Shown: positions 29,812-35,915 of the stretch, piece by piece | Position numbering within the stretch: the stretch's first letter is position 1 | How the letters are laid out: each line of letters starts with the position of its first letter | Assembly (NCBI RefSeq): GCF_031198435.1 | Contig: NZ_CP133548.1 | Coordinates: 372,001 to 436,000 of the forward strand | Direction: 5' to 3' | Length of the DNA: 64,000 nucleotides | Source: Pleionea litopenaei | GTDB lineage: Bacteria > Pseudomonadota > Gammaproteobacteria > Enterobacterales > Kangiellaceae | Made by a program: the position numbers and the translations under genes | The notes under the pieces: generated by a model | Database searches by the model: none | The model's input: the letters and a program-made list of their open reading frames with translations, nothing else | What the model was told of the DNA's origin: nothing

Positions 29812-31473
29812 CTACTGTAAAAGCGATAAGACTGACTGGCCTGAGGCGTTAGCCTGTGCCAAGATCGACAAGCCCGCTTGCTGCAGCACCTGAGACTTAG
29901 CCAAAGCCGCTGTCTCTTGAGCGTAGTCAGTATCTCTGATTCGTGATCGGGCAGCCGATGCGTTCTCAGAAATGTTCTGCAAGTTGTTGATCGTAGAGGA
30001 TAGTCGATTCTGCACCGCACCTAAGCCAGCTCGCGTGTTGTCGATATTGGCTAGGGCACCATCAACGATGTCGATCGCACGTTGTGCGCCGTTGGCAGAT
30101 GAGATATCGATAGATACCGCACTGTCTAGACTCGAACCATCATTGGCTGTGTAGTGACCACCCAGAGTCGCGTTAGCGACAGACACACCGCCTGCACCGC
30201 CGTTCAACTGGATTTGACCGCTGGTGATAAAGCCAGTACCCGTTGCAGTACCCGCAGTTACCGTACCACCCAAGGCGACGGTTTTAGTGCCGTAGAAGTT
30301 CATCACTTTAACTTGGAAGTCAGCAGAGGTAACCGAGGTGGCATTACCAGCGAACTGAATGTTACCCAAGGCGATGTTTTTACCTTCTTCGTTGATTAAG
30401 GTTAATGAAGCACCTTCAGCGACAGCAATGACCCCAGTTTCACCGGTTTTCGCATTGATTGCATCTGCAAAACCCGATAAGTCATAGGAATCATTAACGA
30501 CCGCAGAAACGTCCACAGCGATGTTATTCGCACCGTACAAACGGAACGAGTAGGTACCTTCTTCAAGAAGATTGTTAGTACCACCACCGGCAACTTCACC
30601 ACCGATTTTTACGATAGTTCGCGCATCAGCAGTTACACCACTTTCACCACCTTTACGGTTAATGGCAGCAGCAACATCAGCGGCATCTAACTCAACGTCA
30701 ATGAAGTTTTCATCACTAGAAGCTGCAGAGAAGGTTACTGTGATTTCGGCACGGCCCAGTCCACCAGTAATGGCGAAGGCAGCAGTACCGGTTGCAGTAA
30801 TACCCGCAGTAAGACCTTGCGCCTGGGTACGCTTGTAACGTGAACCGTCAAGGCCGGTTGTTACCGCATCAGCGAAGGTTGCATAACCACCCAACTGTGC
30901 AGCTGAACCTGCTGATCCAGTACCGTTTGACGTTGCGATACCGTTTAAGGTAAGGGCGTTCAAACCGATATCGGAAGCTTTAGCCGACCCAACGCTTACT
31001 GAAATGGTTTCGTTAGCACTTGAGCCAACCTGTAACGAACGTGAACCGAAAGAACCGTTCAATAGCTTTTGGCCACCGTAAGCGGTTGTTTCTGCGATAC
31101 GTTGTAATTCAGATTGCAACTGACTAACTTCTTTTTGCAGTGCTGCGCGCTCTGAAGAGCTGTTGGTACCGTTCGCTGACTGAACCGCCAGGTCACGAAT
31201 ACGTTGTAAGATGTTGGTTGATTCTTGTAATGCACCTTCCGCTGTTTGCGCCAAAGAAATACCATCGTTGGCATTACGAGCGGCCTGGTTAAGACCTCCT
31301 ATTTGTGACGTTAAACGATTAGAAATCTGTAACCCAGCTGCATCATCTTTTGCACTGTTGATTCGTAAACCAGTCGATAAACGCTGGAAAGAAGTTTGCA
31401 GTGCACTGTTGGTGCCGTAAAGGCTACGCTGTGCGTTTAGTGACGAAACGTTCGTCTGAATAACACTACCCAT
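29812..31473 (-). CDS. fliC: Flagellin (fliC1)
   Basis: 553 residues. Filament subunit. The conserved N-terminal D0/D1 region ([38 protein letters not shown]) and the C-terminal D1/D0 region ([40 protein letters not shown]) bracket a variable centre (about 190-440) containing FlgIN-like segments ([18 protein letters not shown]). It has the same length as the second flagellin and aligns with it end to end, a clear duplication. Expression is expected from the sigma28 promoter at 31583-31609; two hairpins lie in its leader. Confidence 0.97.
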
Positions 31474-31498
31474 GATAAGTCTCCTGTTACCTTTGACG

Positions 31499-31570
31499 GA
31501 TCGTCTGAGAAACGATCATCTACAAAGTGTTAACAACTAATGTCCGACCAACAATGCTGAGAACATATTG
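31499..31570 (-). promoter_or_regulatory. fliC1 5' leader: two hairpins with UUCUCAG loops
   Basis: In the predicted leader RNA (start near 31576), the first hairpin is CAAUAUG-UUCUCAG-CAUUG (31570-31552; stem with a two-base bulge, loop 31563-31557). The second is GAUCGU-UUCUCAG-ACGAUC (31517-31499; perfect 6-bp stem, loop 31511-31505). Both loops are the same heptamer. The same arrangement with different stem sequences is found in the fliC2 leader, and the exact complement is in the loops of the candidate RNA at 33868-34086. Confidence 0.7.
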
Positions 31571-31582
31571 GCCTCAAAGCAA

Positions 31583-31609
31583 ATATCGGCGGTCAAAAGG
31601 TCAACTTTA
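31583..31609 (-). promoter_or_regulatory. Sigma28 promoter for fliC1
   Basis: On the minus strand TAAA (31609-31606), a 15-base spacer and GCCGATAT (31590-31583) match the consensus with only the last base different. Predicted leader of about 100 bases. Confidence 0.92.
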
Positions 31610-31664
31610 AACAGGAACGCAAAAAAATCATAACACTATGATTTTTCATGAGTTTTAGTGTTTT

Positions 31665-31692
31665 AAAAAAGGGCTCCGGAAGTGCCGGAGCC
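31665..31692 (-). terminator. Rho-independent terminator after fliC2
   Basis: GGCTCCGG (minus strand 31692-31685), a five-base loop, CCGGAGCC (31679-31672), then a T-run (minus strand of 31670-31665). It lies about 55 bases past the fliC2 stop, so each flagellin has its own transcript. Confidence 0.93.
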
Positions 31693-31746
31693 AATTAAAT
31701 CCCTTAACGTACAGTTTCAAGGGGCCGTATTTCGGCGATCACGGGA

Positions 31747-33408
31747 CTATCCTTGCAGTAGGCTCAACACCGCCTGACTGGAGGAGTTGGCTTGCGCAAG
31801 GATGGATAATCCCGCTTGTTGCAGCACCTGGTTTTTAGCTAGGTTAGCCGTTTCTTGCGCGTAATCGGTATCCTTGATGCGCGAGCGAGCGGCGGCTGCG
31901 TTTTCTGATATGTTTTGTAAGTTAGAGATGGTCGACTCGAGTCGGTTCTGCACCGAACCCAAGCTAGCTCGTAAAGAATCGATGGCAATAATAGCCCCAT
32001 CTACGACTTTAATGGCCGACTGAGCGCCACCGGCCGTTGAGATACTCAAAGCGACGACCGAGTCTAACGAAGAGGCATCGTTAGTCGTATTATGGCCTGC
32101 TAGGTCAGCGTTAGACACCGCGAAACCACTGGCACCACCATTCAATTGGATCTGTCCTGATACCTGTAAGGTATTCGGTGTTCCATTGGCCGTGAAAGAG
32201 GCTGCTTGAGCGATGGTACGAGTGGCATTAAAGTTCATTAACTTCACATCGAATTGAGCACTGGTAACACCGCTTGTTTGTCCGGCAAAGGTGACGTTAC
32301 CCAACGCAATGTTATCGCCATTTTCATTGATGATAGTAAGAGATGGACCATCGGCTATTGCAATGACGCCAGTTTCCCCTGTCGTTTGGTTAATCGAGTT
32401 AGCCAAGTTCGACAAGTCATAGGGGTCGTTCACGGTTGCTGCGACATCGACACCAATTCCATTGGCGCTGAACAGTCTAAAAGAGTAAGTACCTCGAGCC
32501 AGTAAAACTTCGCCACCACCGGCTGGATCGGCACCGCCGATTTGCATAACCGTACGAGCGTCAGCAGACACGCCACTTTCCGATGACTTACGATTAATCG
32601 CTGCGGCTATATCTTTCGCTGAAAGTTCAACATCTAAGCTCTCATCGGCCGTACTGCTGGTAAAGGCGATAGTAATTTCTGCACGACCTAAGCCTCCATT
32701 CACCGCAAATGCGCTGGTACCGGTAGCCGTGATAGCGCTGGTAACACCAAGTCCGCCCGTTCGTTTGAATTGCGAACCATCACCGGCGGTCGTCGCAGTT
32801 GAGAATGCGCCACCGACAGTAATAGCACCTAAACCGGCAGTTGCAGCTGCGGCAGACCCTGTGGTGACTGAATTGGCTTGTACCGTTAGTTTATTTAAGC
32901 CTAATTCAGTGCCGCGAGCCGAACCGATACTGACCGACACGGTTTCATTGGCGTTAGAGCCGACTTGAAAGGCTTGGCTACCAAAGGTTCCGTCGAGAAT
33001 CTTTTTACCGCCAAAAGTCGTTGTATCAGCAATCCGGTTTAGCTCGGCTTGCAGCTGACTGACTTCTTGTTGCAAGGCTTGTCGTTCTGACGCGCCATTC
33101 GAACCATTGGCAGATTGCACCGCTAGATCACGAATACGTTGTAAGATTGTCGTGGCTTCGGCTAGTGCGCCTTCGGCCGTTTGCGATAGAGAAATACCGT
33201 CGTTAGCGTTGCGCACCGCTGCATTGATACCACCAATTTGCGACGTAAGTCGATTAGCGATTTGCAAGCCTGCCGCATCGTCTTTCGCCGAATTAATGCG
33301 AAAGCCTGACGATAATCGTTGAAAGGACGTTTGTAATGCGCTGTTCGTTCCAAACAGGTTTCGCTGCGCATTTAACGATGGAATATTAGTGGCAATCACA
33401 TTACCCAT
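31747..33408 (-). CDS. fliC: Flagellin (fliC2)
   Basis: 553 residues. Paralog of the flagellin at 29812-31473, with the same D0/D1 ends ([39 protein letters not shown]) and a diverged central region. The ATG at 33408 is chosen because GAGGTG lies at the right distance and it gives MGNVIATN, matching the paralog; an in-frame ATG at 33444 would add 12 residues (including two Cys) and has no good ribosome binding site. It has its own sigma28 promoter and terminator, and an unusually long leader of about 200 bases. Confidence 0.97.
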
Positions 33409-33555
33409 AACATACACCTCACACTTTTCAGTGCAACCGCCCATGTATGTTGCGAAGTTTAATTAAATCCTGTTTACCAGGAGAGTTTTTGAGTTGACCG
33501 TCAATGCGCGTTAAACAGTATCAGTTATTGTTTATTGCTTACTTGCCAGTCATGT

Positions 33556-33605
33556 GAAAGCGATCTGAGAAACCGTCTTTCGAAAGGACAACTGAGAACC
33601 TGTCC
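33556..33605 (-). promoter_or_regulatory. fliC2 5' leader: two hairpins with UUCUCAG loops
   Basis: First hairpin in the RNA: GGACAG-GUUCUCAG-UUGUCC (33605-33586), six pairs including one G.U. Second: GAAAG-A-CGGU-UUCUCAG-AUCG-CUUUC (33581-33556), nine pairs with one bulged base and one G.U. Both G.U pairs become A.C mismatches on the opposite strand, so the fold is specific to the fliC2 transcript. The loops are identical to those of the fliC1 leader although the stems differ. Confidence 0.72.
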
Positions 33606-33617
33606 GATTCACCATGG

Positions 33618-33644
33618 GTATCGGCGTGGCAAATTTCGACTTTA
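33618..33644 (-). promoter_or_regulatory. Sigma28 promoter for fliC2
   Basis: On the minus strand TAAA (33644-33641), a 15-base spacer and GCCGATAC (33625-33618). It lies about 210 bases before the fliC2 start; a poly-A/T tract (33645-33660) precedes it. Confidence 0.9.
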
Positions 33645-33841
33645 GAAAAAAAATGAAAAAAGCGGCAATTTTTTGCAGCAAGTGTCTGCAGAGCGGCAAA
33701 ATCTTTCGAATGAAGGGCCGACCTAAAAGTGCAGTCAAATACCATCTTGGTAAGAAATAGTGAGATAAGATAAGGAAGAGTGTTTTCTAACCAATTGAAT
33801 TATAAGAAAATAATAATTGAATAGCGGATATGAAGAAAACT

Positions 33842-33857
33842 TGGCACACCCGTTGCT
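33842..33857 (+). promoter_or_regulatory. Sigma54 promoter of the candidate small RNA
   Basis: TGGCACACCCGTTGCT is a full match to the -24/-12 consensus with GG and GC ten bases apart. Predicted start near 33868. No gene begins before the strong terminator at 34062-34086. Confidence 0.85.
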
Positions 33858-33867
33858 ACTAGGACAG

Positions 33868-34086
33868 TGTCTGAGATATTGAGTGAACAACCTAAAGCCC
33901 ATGATAGGTCTCCACTTCACTATTGACGACATTTTCTCGAGAAAAAAGAGGCGAACTTTATGAATTGCTGAGAACGATGAATAAAGGTAACCCTCAGATA
34001 ATAAAGAGGAGACGATTTAATTGCTGAGAACAATTGAATACTGAACCTCGGACGTACAGACAAGGGGTCGCAAGACCCCTTTTTTC
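33868..34086 (+). ncRNA. Candidate sigma54-dependent small RNA with two CUGAGAA hairpin loops
   Basis: A unit of about 219 bases between a consensus sigma54 promoter and a strong intrinsic terminator, with no convincing ORF (longest ATG frame 20 codons, no ribosome binding site). Two hairpins present the heptamer CUGAGAA. Hairpin 1 (33956-33986): CUUUAU/AUAAAG, a tandem GA/GA internal loop, AUUG/CGAU, loop 33968-33974. Hairpin 2 (34015-34039): a 9-bp stem around loop 34024-34030, with an outer GAGG/CCUC pairing (34006-34009 with 34046-34049). One U.G pair in each stem would be an A.C mismatch on the other strand. The loops are exact complements of the UUCUCAG loops in both flagellin leaders. 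A CUCAG at 33993-33997 could pair internally with either loop. Seen: promoter, hairpins, terminator. Inferred: that it is transcribed and acts on flagellin mRNA. Confidence 0.6.
34062..34086 (+). terminator. Rho-independent terminator of the candidate small RNA
   Basis: AAGGGGTC (34062-34069), tetraloop GCAA, GACCCCTT (34074-34081) and a six-base T-run. It works on the plus strand only. Confidence 0.93.
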
Positions 34087-34095
34087 GTCCTGCAT

Positions 34096-34178: not shown

Positions 34179-35915
34179 ATGGGTAGCAAGCATGCAGTTC
34201 AGTCGACAGGCGGTAAATCGAAAGCGCCGTCGCTGTCATTGGTCGAAAAAAATCATGCCAAACAACATGAACGCGTTGTCAAACTGATGAAGAAAGCCGC
34301 TGCGTTGATGAACGAAGCTGAACTCTCAAAAGCTAAGAAGAAGTTAAGTATGGCATTAAAAATTGAGCCCGATAACTTCGACTGTTTACAAATGATGGCA
34401 TTGATTTATCAACACGAACATAATTTAGAAATGGCGTTTAGCTACTATGAAAAGGCCATGTTGGCATTCAACCCTGAGTACATCAATCCTCGCTCTTACT
34501 TAAAAGTTCTTTTAAACGCAGGTCAGTTGGCGGCCGATATGGATCGGGCGGAAGAAGCGGAAGCTTTTTACACCGCAGTTTTAGAGTTGGATATGACCAA
34601 TACCATGGCTTTAAGTAAACGCGCGCGTCTATATACCGAAATGGGTCAGTTAGAGAAAGCCTATGCTGACTACAAATCGGTAATCTTTTTCCCTGATCGT
34701 GAAGAGTATGCGCCGCTTGGGTTGCGCTTTACTGCTCATACGTCAATTATGCAATCGACTCATATCAAGCCAGATGAGTCAGACATCGAAATGTTAAAGA
34801 AAGATATTGAAGCAACGACTAATGATAATCACAAGATCAAATACGAATTTGCACTGGGTTTTGGACTTGAAAAATTGAATCGTTATGACGAAGCTTTCGA
34901 AGCCTTTAAACGAGCCAATGATCAAAAGCGTAAACGTATTTCTTACAGTCGCAAAGAGAACATGAACTCTTGTGATCGAATTATCGATATTTTTACCAAA
35001 GAAAATGTTGAGCGTTTTGCGGATATTGCCGATCACGACTTCAAACCGATTTTTGTTATTGGTTTGCCGCGAAGTGGTACAACCGTGACCGAATCTTTGT
35101 TAGGCGCACACCCCGAAGTTAACCCTGCGGGAGAATTAACCTATATTTCAGATATTGCCCTGAAAATTGCTTCGTTGGATGAAAAGAAATTTTACCCTGA
35201 ACAGTTTTTAGACGTGTCCAAATCTTTCATCAAATCACAAATTCGATATTACAAAGATAATTCAAAACAGTTTTTAAAAGACGGCGCAACCACCTTCGTT
35301 GATAAAATGCCCGGGAATTTTATGAACATTGGTATCATATTGGCGCTGTTTCCGAATGCTCGCATCATTCATTTATACAAAAATCCGATGGATGCCTGCT
35401 TATCATTGTTTCGACAACATTTCGCTAATGGTCATCTTTATTGTTACAACATGGGTGATCTCGGCGGCTACTACCAGTCGTTTCGCAAGATTATGGAGCA
35501 CTACAACAAAGAGTTCGGCGATAAAATTTATAACGTCTCCTATGAACACTTCGTTGAAAATATTGGTGAAGAAGCGCCTAAAATGTTCGCTCATTGTGGC
35601 CTTGAGTGGGATGACGAATATCTATCATTCTATAAATCAAAACGTCGAGTCAAAACGGCCAGTGTTCAGCAAGTCCGTAAAGGGATTTATACCTCGGCGG
35701 TTGAACGTTGGAGAAAATATGACAATGGCGATAATTTGATCATCTTGAAAAAAGCGTTGGCTGATTATATGGGTGACGAAATAAAAGAACAGGTCGCCGA
35801 GTTTGATCAACGCACCGCTGCAGAGTTAAAAGCTGTGCAAAGTAGTGATGATGTTAAGAATTTTGATATTCAAATAGACGGTGTGAACAAACCTCAGGTT
35901 ATAAAACACGATTAA
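34179..35915 (+). CDS. TPR-containing sulfotransferase in the late flagellar regulon
   Basis: 578 residues. The N-terminal part (about 30-190) is tetratricopeptide-like helices (AEEAEAFYTAVLELDMTNTM, GQLEKAYADYKSVIF). The C-terminal part is a PAPS-dependent sulfotransferase with the 5'-phosphosulfate loop GLPRSGTT (295-302) and a 3'-phosphate region HLYKNPMDACLSLFRQHF. No signal peptide or membrane segment is seen, so it is cytoplasmic. It lies next to flagellin genes and has a sigma28 promoter, so it should be made together with flagellin. A role in sulfating flagellin or its glycan is an inference. PAPS is also the substrate of CysH in this window. A terminator follows. Confidence 0.88.
   Translation: MGSKHAVQSTGGKSKAPSLSLVEKNHAKQHERVVKLMKKAAALMNEAELSKAKKKLSMALKIEPDNFDCLQMMALIYQHEHNLEMAFSYYEKAMLAFNPEYINPRSYLKVLLNAGQLAADMDRAEEAEAFYTAVLELDMTNTMALSKRARLYTEMGQLEKAYADYKSVIFFPDREEYAPLGLRFTAHTSIMQSTHIKPDESDIEMLKKDIEATTNDNHKIKYEFALGFGLEKLNRYDEAFEAFKRANDQKRKRISYSRKENMNSCDRIIDIFTKENVERFADIADHDFKPIFVIGLPRSGTTVTESLLGAHPEVNPAGELTYISDIALKIASLDEKKFYPEQFLDVSKSFIKSQIRYYKDNSKQFLKDGATTFVDKMPGNFMNIGIILALFPNARIIHLYKNPMDACLSLFRQHFANGHLYCYNMGDLGGYYQSFRKIMEHYNKEFGDKIYNVSYEHFVENIGEEAPKMFAHCGLEWDDEYLSFYKSKRRVKTASVQQVRKGIYTSAVERWRKYDNGDNLIILKKALADYMGDEIKEQVAEFDQRTAAELKAVQSSDDVKNFDIQIDGVNKPQVIKHD

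Follow-up and report, generated by a model that had tools for sequence, protein, structure and literature searches.

A small RNA gene predicted beside two flagellin genes

The 64,000-nt stretch of the Pleionea litopenaei genome (4.42 Mb) analysed here, hereafter the window, carries in rightward order two minus-strand flagellin genes, an intergenic region, a TPR-sulfotransferase gene and fleQ, the last two on the plus strand. The intergenic region contains a candidate gene for a small RNA (sRNA) with an element near its 5′ end that is antisense to the Shine–Dalgarno (SD) sequence and start codon of the distal flagellin (the anti-start element) and two hairpins with the loop sequence CUGAGAA; the distal and proximal flagellins (67% identity) have leaders that both begin at a sigma28-type match and each present the complementary loop UUCUCAG twice (Table 1). 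Comparison with related genomes indicates that the RNA gene is conserved, that the hairpins belong to RNA of the predicted strands, and that predicted base pairing in trans co-evolves between the RNA and the flagellin messages. An initial annotation of this stretch had proposed a circuit in which a sigma54-dependent RNA faces complementary loops in both sigma28-dependent leaders. That circuit proved to be conserved in 24 genomes of three families, with the exception of the proximal flagellins of family f4 (two genomes), and the proposal was supported but incomplete, as it overlooked the second, anti-start contact on the distal flagellin.

Table 1 Genes, predicted promoters and RNA elements of the flagellin locus (window coordinates)
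Feature	Position	Strand	Basis
Distal flagellin gene (fliC1 of the initial annotation)	29812..31473	-	Open reading frame (ORF)
Anti-start target GGAGACUUAUCAUGGGU, SD and start codon of distal flagellin	31468..31484	-	Pairing with small RNA
Distal leader loop 2 (UUCUCAG)	31505..31511	-	Letters and folding
Distal leader loop 1 (UUCUCAG), 13 nt past predicted start	31557..31563	-	Letters and folding
Predicted sigma28 promoter, distal flagellin (TAAA-N15-GCCGATAT)	31583..31609	-	11/12 consensus positions
Proximal flagellin gene (fliC2 of the initial annotation)	31747..33408	-	Pfam Flagellin_N and Flagellin_C
Proximal leader loop 2 (UUCUCAG)	33565..33571	-	Letters and folding
Proximal leader loop 1 (UUCUCAG), 13 nt past predicted start	33592..33598	-	Letters and folding
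Predicted sigma28 promoter, proximal flagellin (TAAA-N15-GCCGATAC)	33618..33644	-	11/12 consensus positions
Predicted sigma54 promoter of small RNA (TGGCACACCCGTTGC)	33842..33856	+	Consensus match, points right
Predicted small RNA, about 220 nt	33868..34086	+	5′ end from predicted promoter; terminator; fold
Anti-start element GCCCAUGAUAGGUCUCC, antisense to distal flagellin SD and start codon	33897..33913	+	Pairing, covariation
RNA hairpin 1, CUGAGAA loop at 33968-33974	33956..33986	+	Letters and folding
RNA hairpin 2, CUGAGAA loop at 34024-34030	34015..34039	+	Letters and folding
Intrinsic terminator of small RNA	34062..34087	+	8-bp stem, 4-nt loop, T run; terminator match at 34062–34081

The RNA was found in 24/24 genomes examined, namely in all 19 flagellin-bearing genomes among the 40 of family f1, in 3/3 f14 genomes and in 2/2 f4 genomes; three of them (G003, G004 and G076) are metagenome-assembled, and G007 is Aliikangiella sp. 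G2MR2-5. Twenty-three RNAs were chosen by a CCCATG-like element behind a sigma54-type match, complementarity to flagellin being no criterion of choice, and the remaining one, in G018, was located via its loops. The RNA alignment (A1) comprises 23 genomes, G012 having been omitted because of Ns. As expected of a trans-acting sRNA, the gene has a predicted promoter and terminator of its own: a sigma54-like match precedes the anti-start element by 23–36 nt plus about 26 nt in 24/24 genomes (ending GT instead of GC in G076), and the terminator is present in the window. The element starts 23–36 nt after the predicted RNA 5′ end, and the CUGAGAA loops, two or three per RNA (one in f4), are spaced 45–58 nt apart. 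Folding of the window RNA gave z = −3.30 for the whole molecule and z = −3.56 and −2.85 for its two loop-hairpin domains. A conserved stretch (consensus TCGTACGGTAAGGGG) leads into the terminator of most aligned f1 and f14 RNAs; its window version, at about 34050–34062, is GACGTACAGACAAGGGG.

Three other identities were considered for this gene and rejected. Small ORFs preceded by an SD sequence occur in just 5/24 genomes and are not common to them, which speaks against a protein-coding reading; the conserved repeated loops read CUGAGAA, without GGA, and no Rfam family matched, which speaks against a CsrB/RsmZ-type sponge for CsrA. A cis-encoded kissing antisense RNA was discarded as well, the RNA gene lying at least 500 bp from the matched predicted 5′ untranslated regions in the window and apart from the flagellin locus in four genomes (G005, G006, G016 and G017; loci L104, L105, L106 and L107), so that in these four it would act in trans whatever its origin.

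Pattern searches delimited the distribution further. In an order-level sample of 394 genomes, outside which G012 and G013 fall, a tandem-loop pattern matched 23 genomes (17 f1, 3 f14, 1 f4 and 2 unrelated; reversed control 1/394), the f4 match lying in a leader and not in the RNA. A loop-independent pattern (sigma54 match plus CCCATGATA) matched 20 (15 f1, 2 f14, 2 f4 and 1 unrelated; reversed control 0) and missed G009, G018 and G076, whose sequences deviate from it. Tandem-loop matches in G316 and G381 (no flagellin among the ORFs listed) and a loop-independent match in G082 (no flagellin within 1.5 kb) were set aside. Family f1 also includes 21 flagellin-less genomes (20 from genus g6), and the 18 of these in the order sample gave 0 matches to either pattern; a looser pattern, found at 87 places in the 19 flagellated f1 genomes versus 37 for its reversed control, remained at background in these 21 (17 versus 22). 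At class level, the exact tandem-loop pattern, which divergent versions could escape, was found in 2/369 genomes, the window genome and G754, where the match is a three-copy short direct repeat. A leader pattern search returned 18 stretches, several in unrelated phyla; the two other gammaproteobacterial matches inspected, in Paraglaciecola polaris and Sediminihaliea, were rejected: neither stretch contains a flagellin, and the one in Paraglaciecola falls within a gene for an ABC-type ATPase.

Complementary loop hairpins in the RNA and the flagellin leaders

As the initial annotation had described, the six heptamers of the locus (CTGAGAA on the plus strand, and thus UUCUCAG in flagellin mRNA at the four leader sites) all lie in hairpins on the predicted strands; its description of them as heptaloops fails in one instance, the first fliC2 heptamer, which folds as an 8-nt loop. 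The ten-base match that it noted between the RNA and the first fliC1 hairpin (GUUCUCAGCA/UGCUGAGAAC) is also present. The heptamer itself is not scattered over the genome in excess, occurring 312+290 times (602) compared with 333+271 (604) for the reversed control, and is only mildly frequent in the window (16 copies versus a mean of 9.59, reached by 3/100 shuffles); the evidence is therefore comparative. Tandem heptamers with a gap of 20–50 nt occur four times in the window genome, and three of these are the two leaders and the RNA.

Across the 24 genomes, UUCUCAG is present in 51/55 flagellin leaders, at 126 sites. These sites are what remains of 131 heptamers once three antisense-read RNA loops and two copies upstream of the predicted start are subtracted, and the leader set leaves out G017:C25, G010:C305 (partial), the L135 copy of G095 and copies repeated where stretches overlap. 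Over seven flanking positions, leader sites showed 557 Watson–Crick (WC) and 116 G·U pairs of 882, versus 32 A/C mismatches, and the first pair takes several forms (G-C 39, A-U 28, U-A 27, U-G 17), so that the stems vary and nevertheless keep pairing. The 50 loop sites of 23 RNAs (G067 being left out for its variant loop) gave 271 WC and 48 G·U pairs of 350, versus 3 A/C, with closing pairs that are almost constant (G-C in 47/50, followed by U-A in 40). By partition-function folding, at least two expected stem pairs were obtained at 125/126 leader and 49/50 RNA sites. Background levels were seen at 75 other TTCTCAG sites of the same loci (103 WC and 49 G·U pairs of 375 over five positions, 40 A/C), and the same test applied to one-mismatch loops returned a single leader hairpin, from G015, and no counterpart among the RNAs. 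That the heptamer sites form RNA hairpins on the predicted strands is strongly supported by these pairing counts.

We also considered whether the repeats might be DNA elements, for instance binding sites of a regulator, with incidental hairpins, as could be suspected from the common plus-strand orientation of all six window sites. However, the flanks pair though they are not conserved in sequence, G·U pairs far outnumber A/C on the predicted strand of both partners (116:32 and 48:3, as the initial annotation had anticipated from a few stems), and the covariation of the anti-start element described below would be left unexplained. This reading was already disfavoured, and we regard it as hardly credible.

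The heptamer pair is almost invariant, and the single natural variant found is changed on both sides. In f4, G042 combines the RNA loop CUGAGAA with two leader loops that read UUCUCAG. In the sister genome G067 the RNA loop is CUGAGAG and the second leader hairpin presents CUCUCAG; the first leader loop there, still UUCUCAG, can pair with the variant RNA loop via a U·G. No case was found in which one loop is kept while its partner changes. The proximal flagellin leader of these f4 genomes (L100 and L132) lacks both UUCUCAG and a good sigma28 match. As to position, among the 47 leaders with a heptamer and a sigma28 match of 10 or more, the first loop lies 13 nt past the predicted start in 17 and 7–16 nt past it in 27, and the last two leader loops are 50–52 nt apart in G000, G001, G003, G004 and G007, close to the RNA loop spacing.

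A predicted antisense contact with the start of the distal flagellin

The 5′ part of the small RNA is antisense to the SD sequence and start codon of the distal flagellin over 13–25 uninterrupted pairs in 24/24 genomes (longest uninterrupted run between RNA nt 1–110 and positions −30 to +15 relative to the start). In the window this run measures 17 nt at the distal start (15 WC and 2 G·U pairs) versus 10 nt at the proximal one; among the 55 flagellins, 29 pair over at least 12 nt and 26 over 11 nt or fewer, the latter including every proximal flagellin in the set, to which G012 contributes none. When duplex energies were compared, the RNA was predicted to bind the distal start more strongly than any control start from the genome concerned, and this held in 24/24 genomes (255 controls in total, between 2 and 43 for each genome; one of 256, in G095 at −94.3, was dropped for overlapping the RNA gene).

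Furthermore, the two sides of this contact change together. In the 22 genomes that share one register (G005 and G018 differ and are left out), start positions −8 to +4 are paired throughout, with the pair itself varying at position −6 (C-G 6, U-A 14, U-G 2) and position −5 (C-G 9, U-A 10, U-G 3). Over 21 positions the 22 pairings contain 37 mismatches, a number as low as which was reached in 0/10000 permutations of partners, although kinship inflates this figure. The clearest case is one of the two genomes outside the register, G018 (Pleionea sp. CnH1-48), where the start region differs and the RNA matches that altered sequence with perfect antisense over 25 nt; in G005 the start region and the RNA element are both one nt longer than usual, with 13 nt of uninterrupted pairing. 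Where most relatives have AAUG, G010 has AGUG and its RNA CACU; in G013, AGUG stands against CAUU in the RNA (a U·G). A trans-acting sRNA is expected to display just this, namely complementarity, conserved and covarying, with a target whose gene lies elsewhere. Base pairing between the RNA and flagellin messages is strongly supported by the comparison, and covariation is best in the predicted antisense duplex over the ribosome-binding site and start codon, a duplex confined to the distal flagellin.

The exact target GGAGAYYTATCATGGG was found in 21/394 genomes of the order sample, at 33 places (reversed control 0), of which 22 are flagellin starts, 10 belong to RNA genes and the last to a lipoprotein-like gene; in the 20 RNA-carrying genomes concerned, no gene besides the flagellin starts and RNA genes (32 places) contains it. 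The lipoprotein-like gene carries the target at its start in G021 (L169), a family genome without flagellin, and this match is probably due to chance. A conserved 3′ element of the RNA, TCGTACGGTA, has 8-mer matches upstream of flagellins in only 3/24 genomes and no consistent leader partner, and a search of the 24 genomes for further recurrent contacts between RNA and leaders yielded none that was consistent.

The place of this contact bears on the direction of regulation. An RNA that stabilises or activates the flagellin messages, with a docked hairpin at the 5′ terminus guarding the mRNA against decay, would suit the short distance between the predicted start and the first UUCUCAG, at which docking could affect 5′-end decay, as well as a proximal leader that has the docking contact only. 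We nonetheless find activation quite improbable, as the best-covarying contact lies over the SD sequence and AUG of the distal message, where it should block initiation.

Conversely, the anti-start element might repress by itself, the loops, instead of kissing, being bound by a common protein or left over from an inverted leader copy. The contact is long enough to act by itself, the loop heptamers are nearly invariant, as a protein site would be, and the order of elements in the RNA (anti-start element, loops), read antiparallel, is collinear with that of the leader (loops, start). Two conserved heptaloops that are exactly complementary would, however, be unexpected for protein sites; the stems have fully diverged while the loops were kept, the sole loop variant being compensated; and the loops are present in the proximal leader too, where the start-region match is absent. 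We consider repression without kissing unlikely, if less so than activation. In its antisense reading, the RNA gene (33868–34086) presents loop hairpins and then an SD sequence and start, as does a flagellin leader, and this shared order suggests that the gene arose as an inverted copy of a leader.

Proposed mechanism and its relation to known systems

Taken together, we think it probable that a dedicated RNA acts in trans on flagellin messages; produced at an early stage of flagellar assembly, it would dock onto them through kissing loops and prevent translation of the distal one. We infer in this way that the RNA is transcribed, that loop–loop contact is physical, that the outcome is repression, and that its timing would suit a checkpoint or a role in flagellin order. 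In the flagellar hierarchy, sigma54 serves middle genes and sigma28 late flagellins, as outlined in PMC11882849; from its sigma54 promoter, the RNA would be made along with the middle (hook–basal body) genes and end at its own terminator. Its CUGAGAA loops would dock by kissing onto the UUCUCAG loops of the leaders, after which the 5′ element would pair with the distal SD sequence and start codon and keep the 30S subunit from binding. The resulting duplex may also recruit RNase III, a consequence reported for the pairing of RNAIII with coa (PMC2837412). The proximal message, with docking loops and without the start-region match, should escape such blocking; more speculatively, it may titrate the RNA or have its own stability affected.

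Several observations weigh against this proposal. Both kinds of promoter are consensus matches, from which transcription of the RNA is deduced. Judged by energy alone, the 5′ part of the RNA is unremarkable (z = −0.56), and the leader folds are not unusually stable (z −0.96 for the fliC1 leader and −1.51 for the fliC2 double hairpin). Exchanging partners between genomes costs little: swapped pairs have 2.18 versus 1.68 mismatches per pair and still form runs of 16.3 nt on average versus 19.5 nt for own pairs, and 8/24 RNAs make more WC pairs with the target of another genome than with their own. The two contacts do not always go together, as one G052 flagellin keeps the loop yet has a start match of only 9 nt and the third G067 flagellin has a 12-nt start match and no loop. 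Leader loops vary greatly in number and spacing between clades, so that no fixed geometry is claimed, and f4 RNAs have a single loop. Finally, the heptamer is almost frozen, and the case for kissing accordingly draws mainly on complementarity and on one event of compensated change.

Complementary hairpin loops of 6–7 nt, several per molecule, serve recognition in the plasmid systems RNAI/RNAII and CopA/CopT. Those RNAs are encoded opposite their targets, whereas the flagellin RNA is encoded elsewhere, has diverged stems and faces several targets. The closest mechanism is that of Staphylococcus aureus RNAIII on coa mRNA (PMC2837412), a trans-acting RNA that, as proposed here, blocks translation by an SD-masking duplex together with a separate loop–loop contact on the same mRNA. 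Of these two traits, the former is matched at the level of sequence by pairs over SD and AUG; as to the latter, exactly complementary conserved loops with one compensated change would allow such a contact. The loop–loop contact of RNAIII is single and lies downstream, in the coding region, whereas the flagellin loops lie upstream, are repeated and are common to two messages; organism and gene differ as well, and a sequence relation was judged only by the absence of Rfam matches.

Flagellar sRNAs are described for E. coli (PMC10578931) and Campylobacter (PMC11187230). In C. jejuni, CJnc230 (FlmE) and CJnc170 (FlmR), one of them RpoN-dependent, also tune filament assembly; CJnc230 is processed from the flgE mRNA and represses flgM and Cj1387c, by which flagellin would be raised indirectly, and the passages of PMC11187230 on these two RNAs make no mention of kissing loops. 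E. coli UhpU, MotR, FliX and FlgO likewise pair with fliC mRNA, and FliX overexpression lowers flagellin, but they are UTR-derived and sigma28-dependent, with fliC contacts mostly within the coding sequence (PMC10578931). In agreement with the initial annotation, which knew of no such system for flagellins, a sigma54-dependent RNA combining complementary loops with start-codon pairing on a flagellin message was not found in open PubMed Central papers, a body of literature to which subscription papers and preprints are mostly external.

With respect to neighbouring genes, a TPR-sulfotransferase gene (34179–35915; Pfam Sulfotransfer_3) sits between the RNA gene and fleQ, and other sulfotransferase or sugar-nucleotide genes adjoin the flagellins of relatives (L021, L022 and L023); these neighbours perhaps have a role in flagellin modification.

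The simplest use of the proposed regulation would be to hold back translation of the distal flagellin until hook completion. A more elaborate three-way circuit, which we advance tentatively and hold to be somewhat doubtful, could set the order of flagellins, with the RNA silencing the distal message while the proximal one is translated first, soaks up the RNA and so releases the distal. If true, the system would constitute a post-transcriptional checkpoint directly on flagellin translation, in which one RNA and several messages share kissing loops across three families. It would also offer a natural experiment in RNA–RNA co-evolution, with frozen loops, free stems and an antisense element that follows its target. 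For bacteria that possess several sigma28-dependent flagellins, it would give a testable account of how these are ordered or metered.

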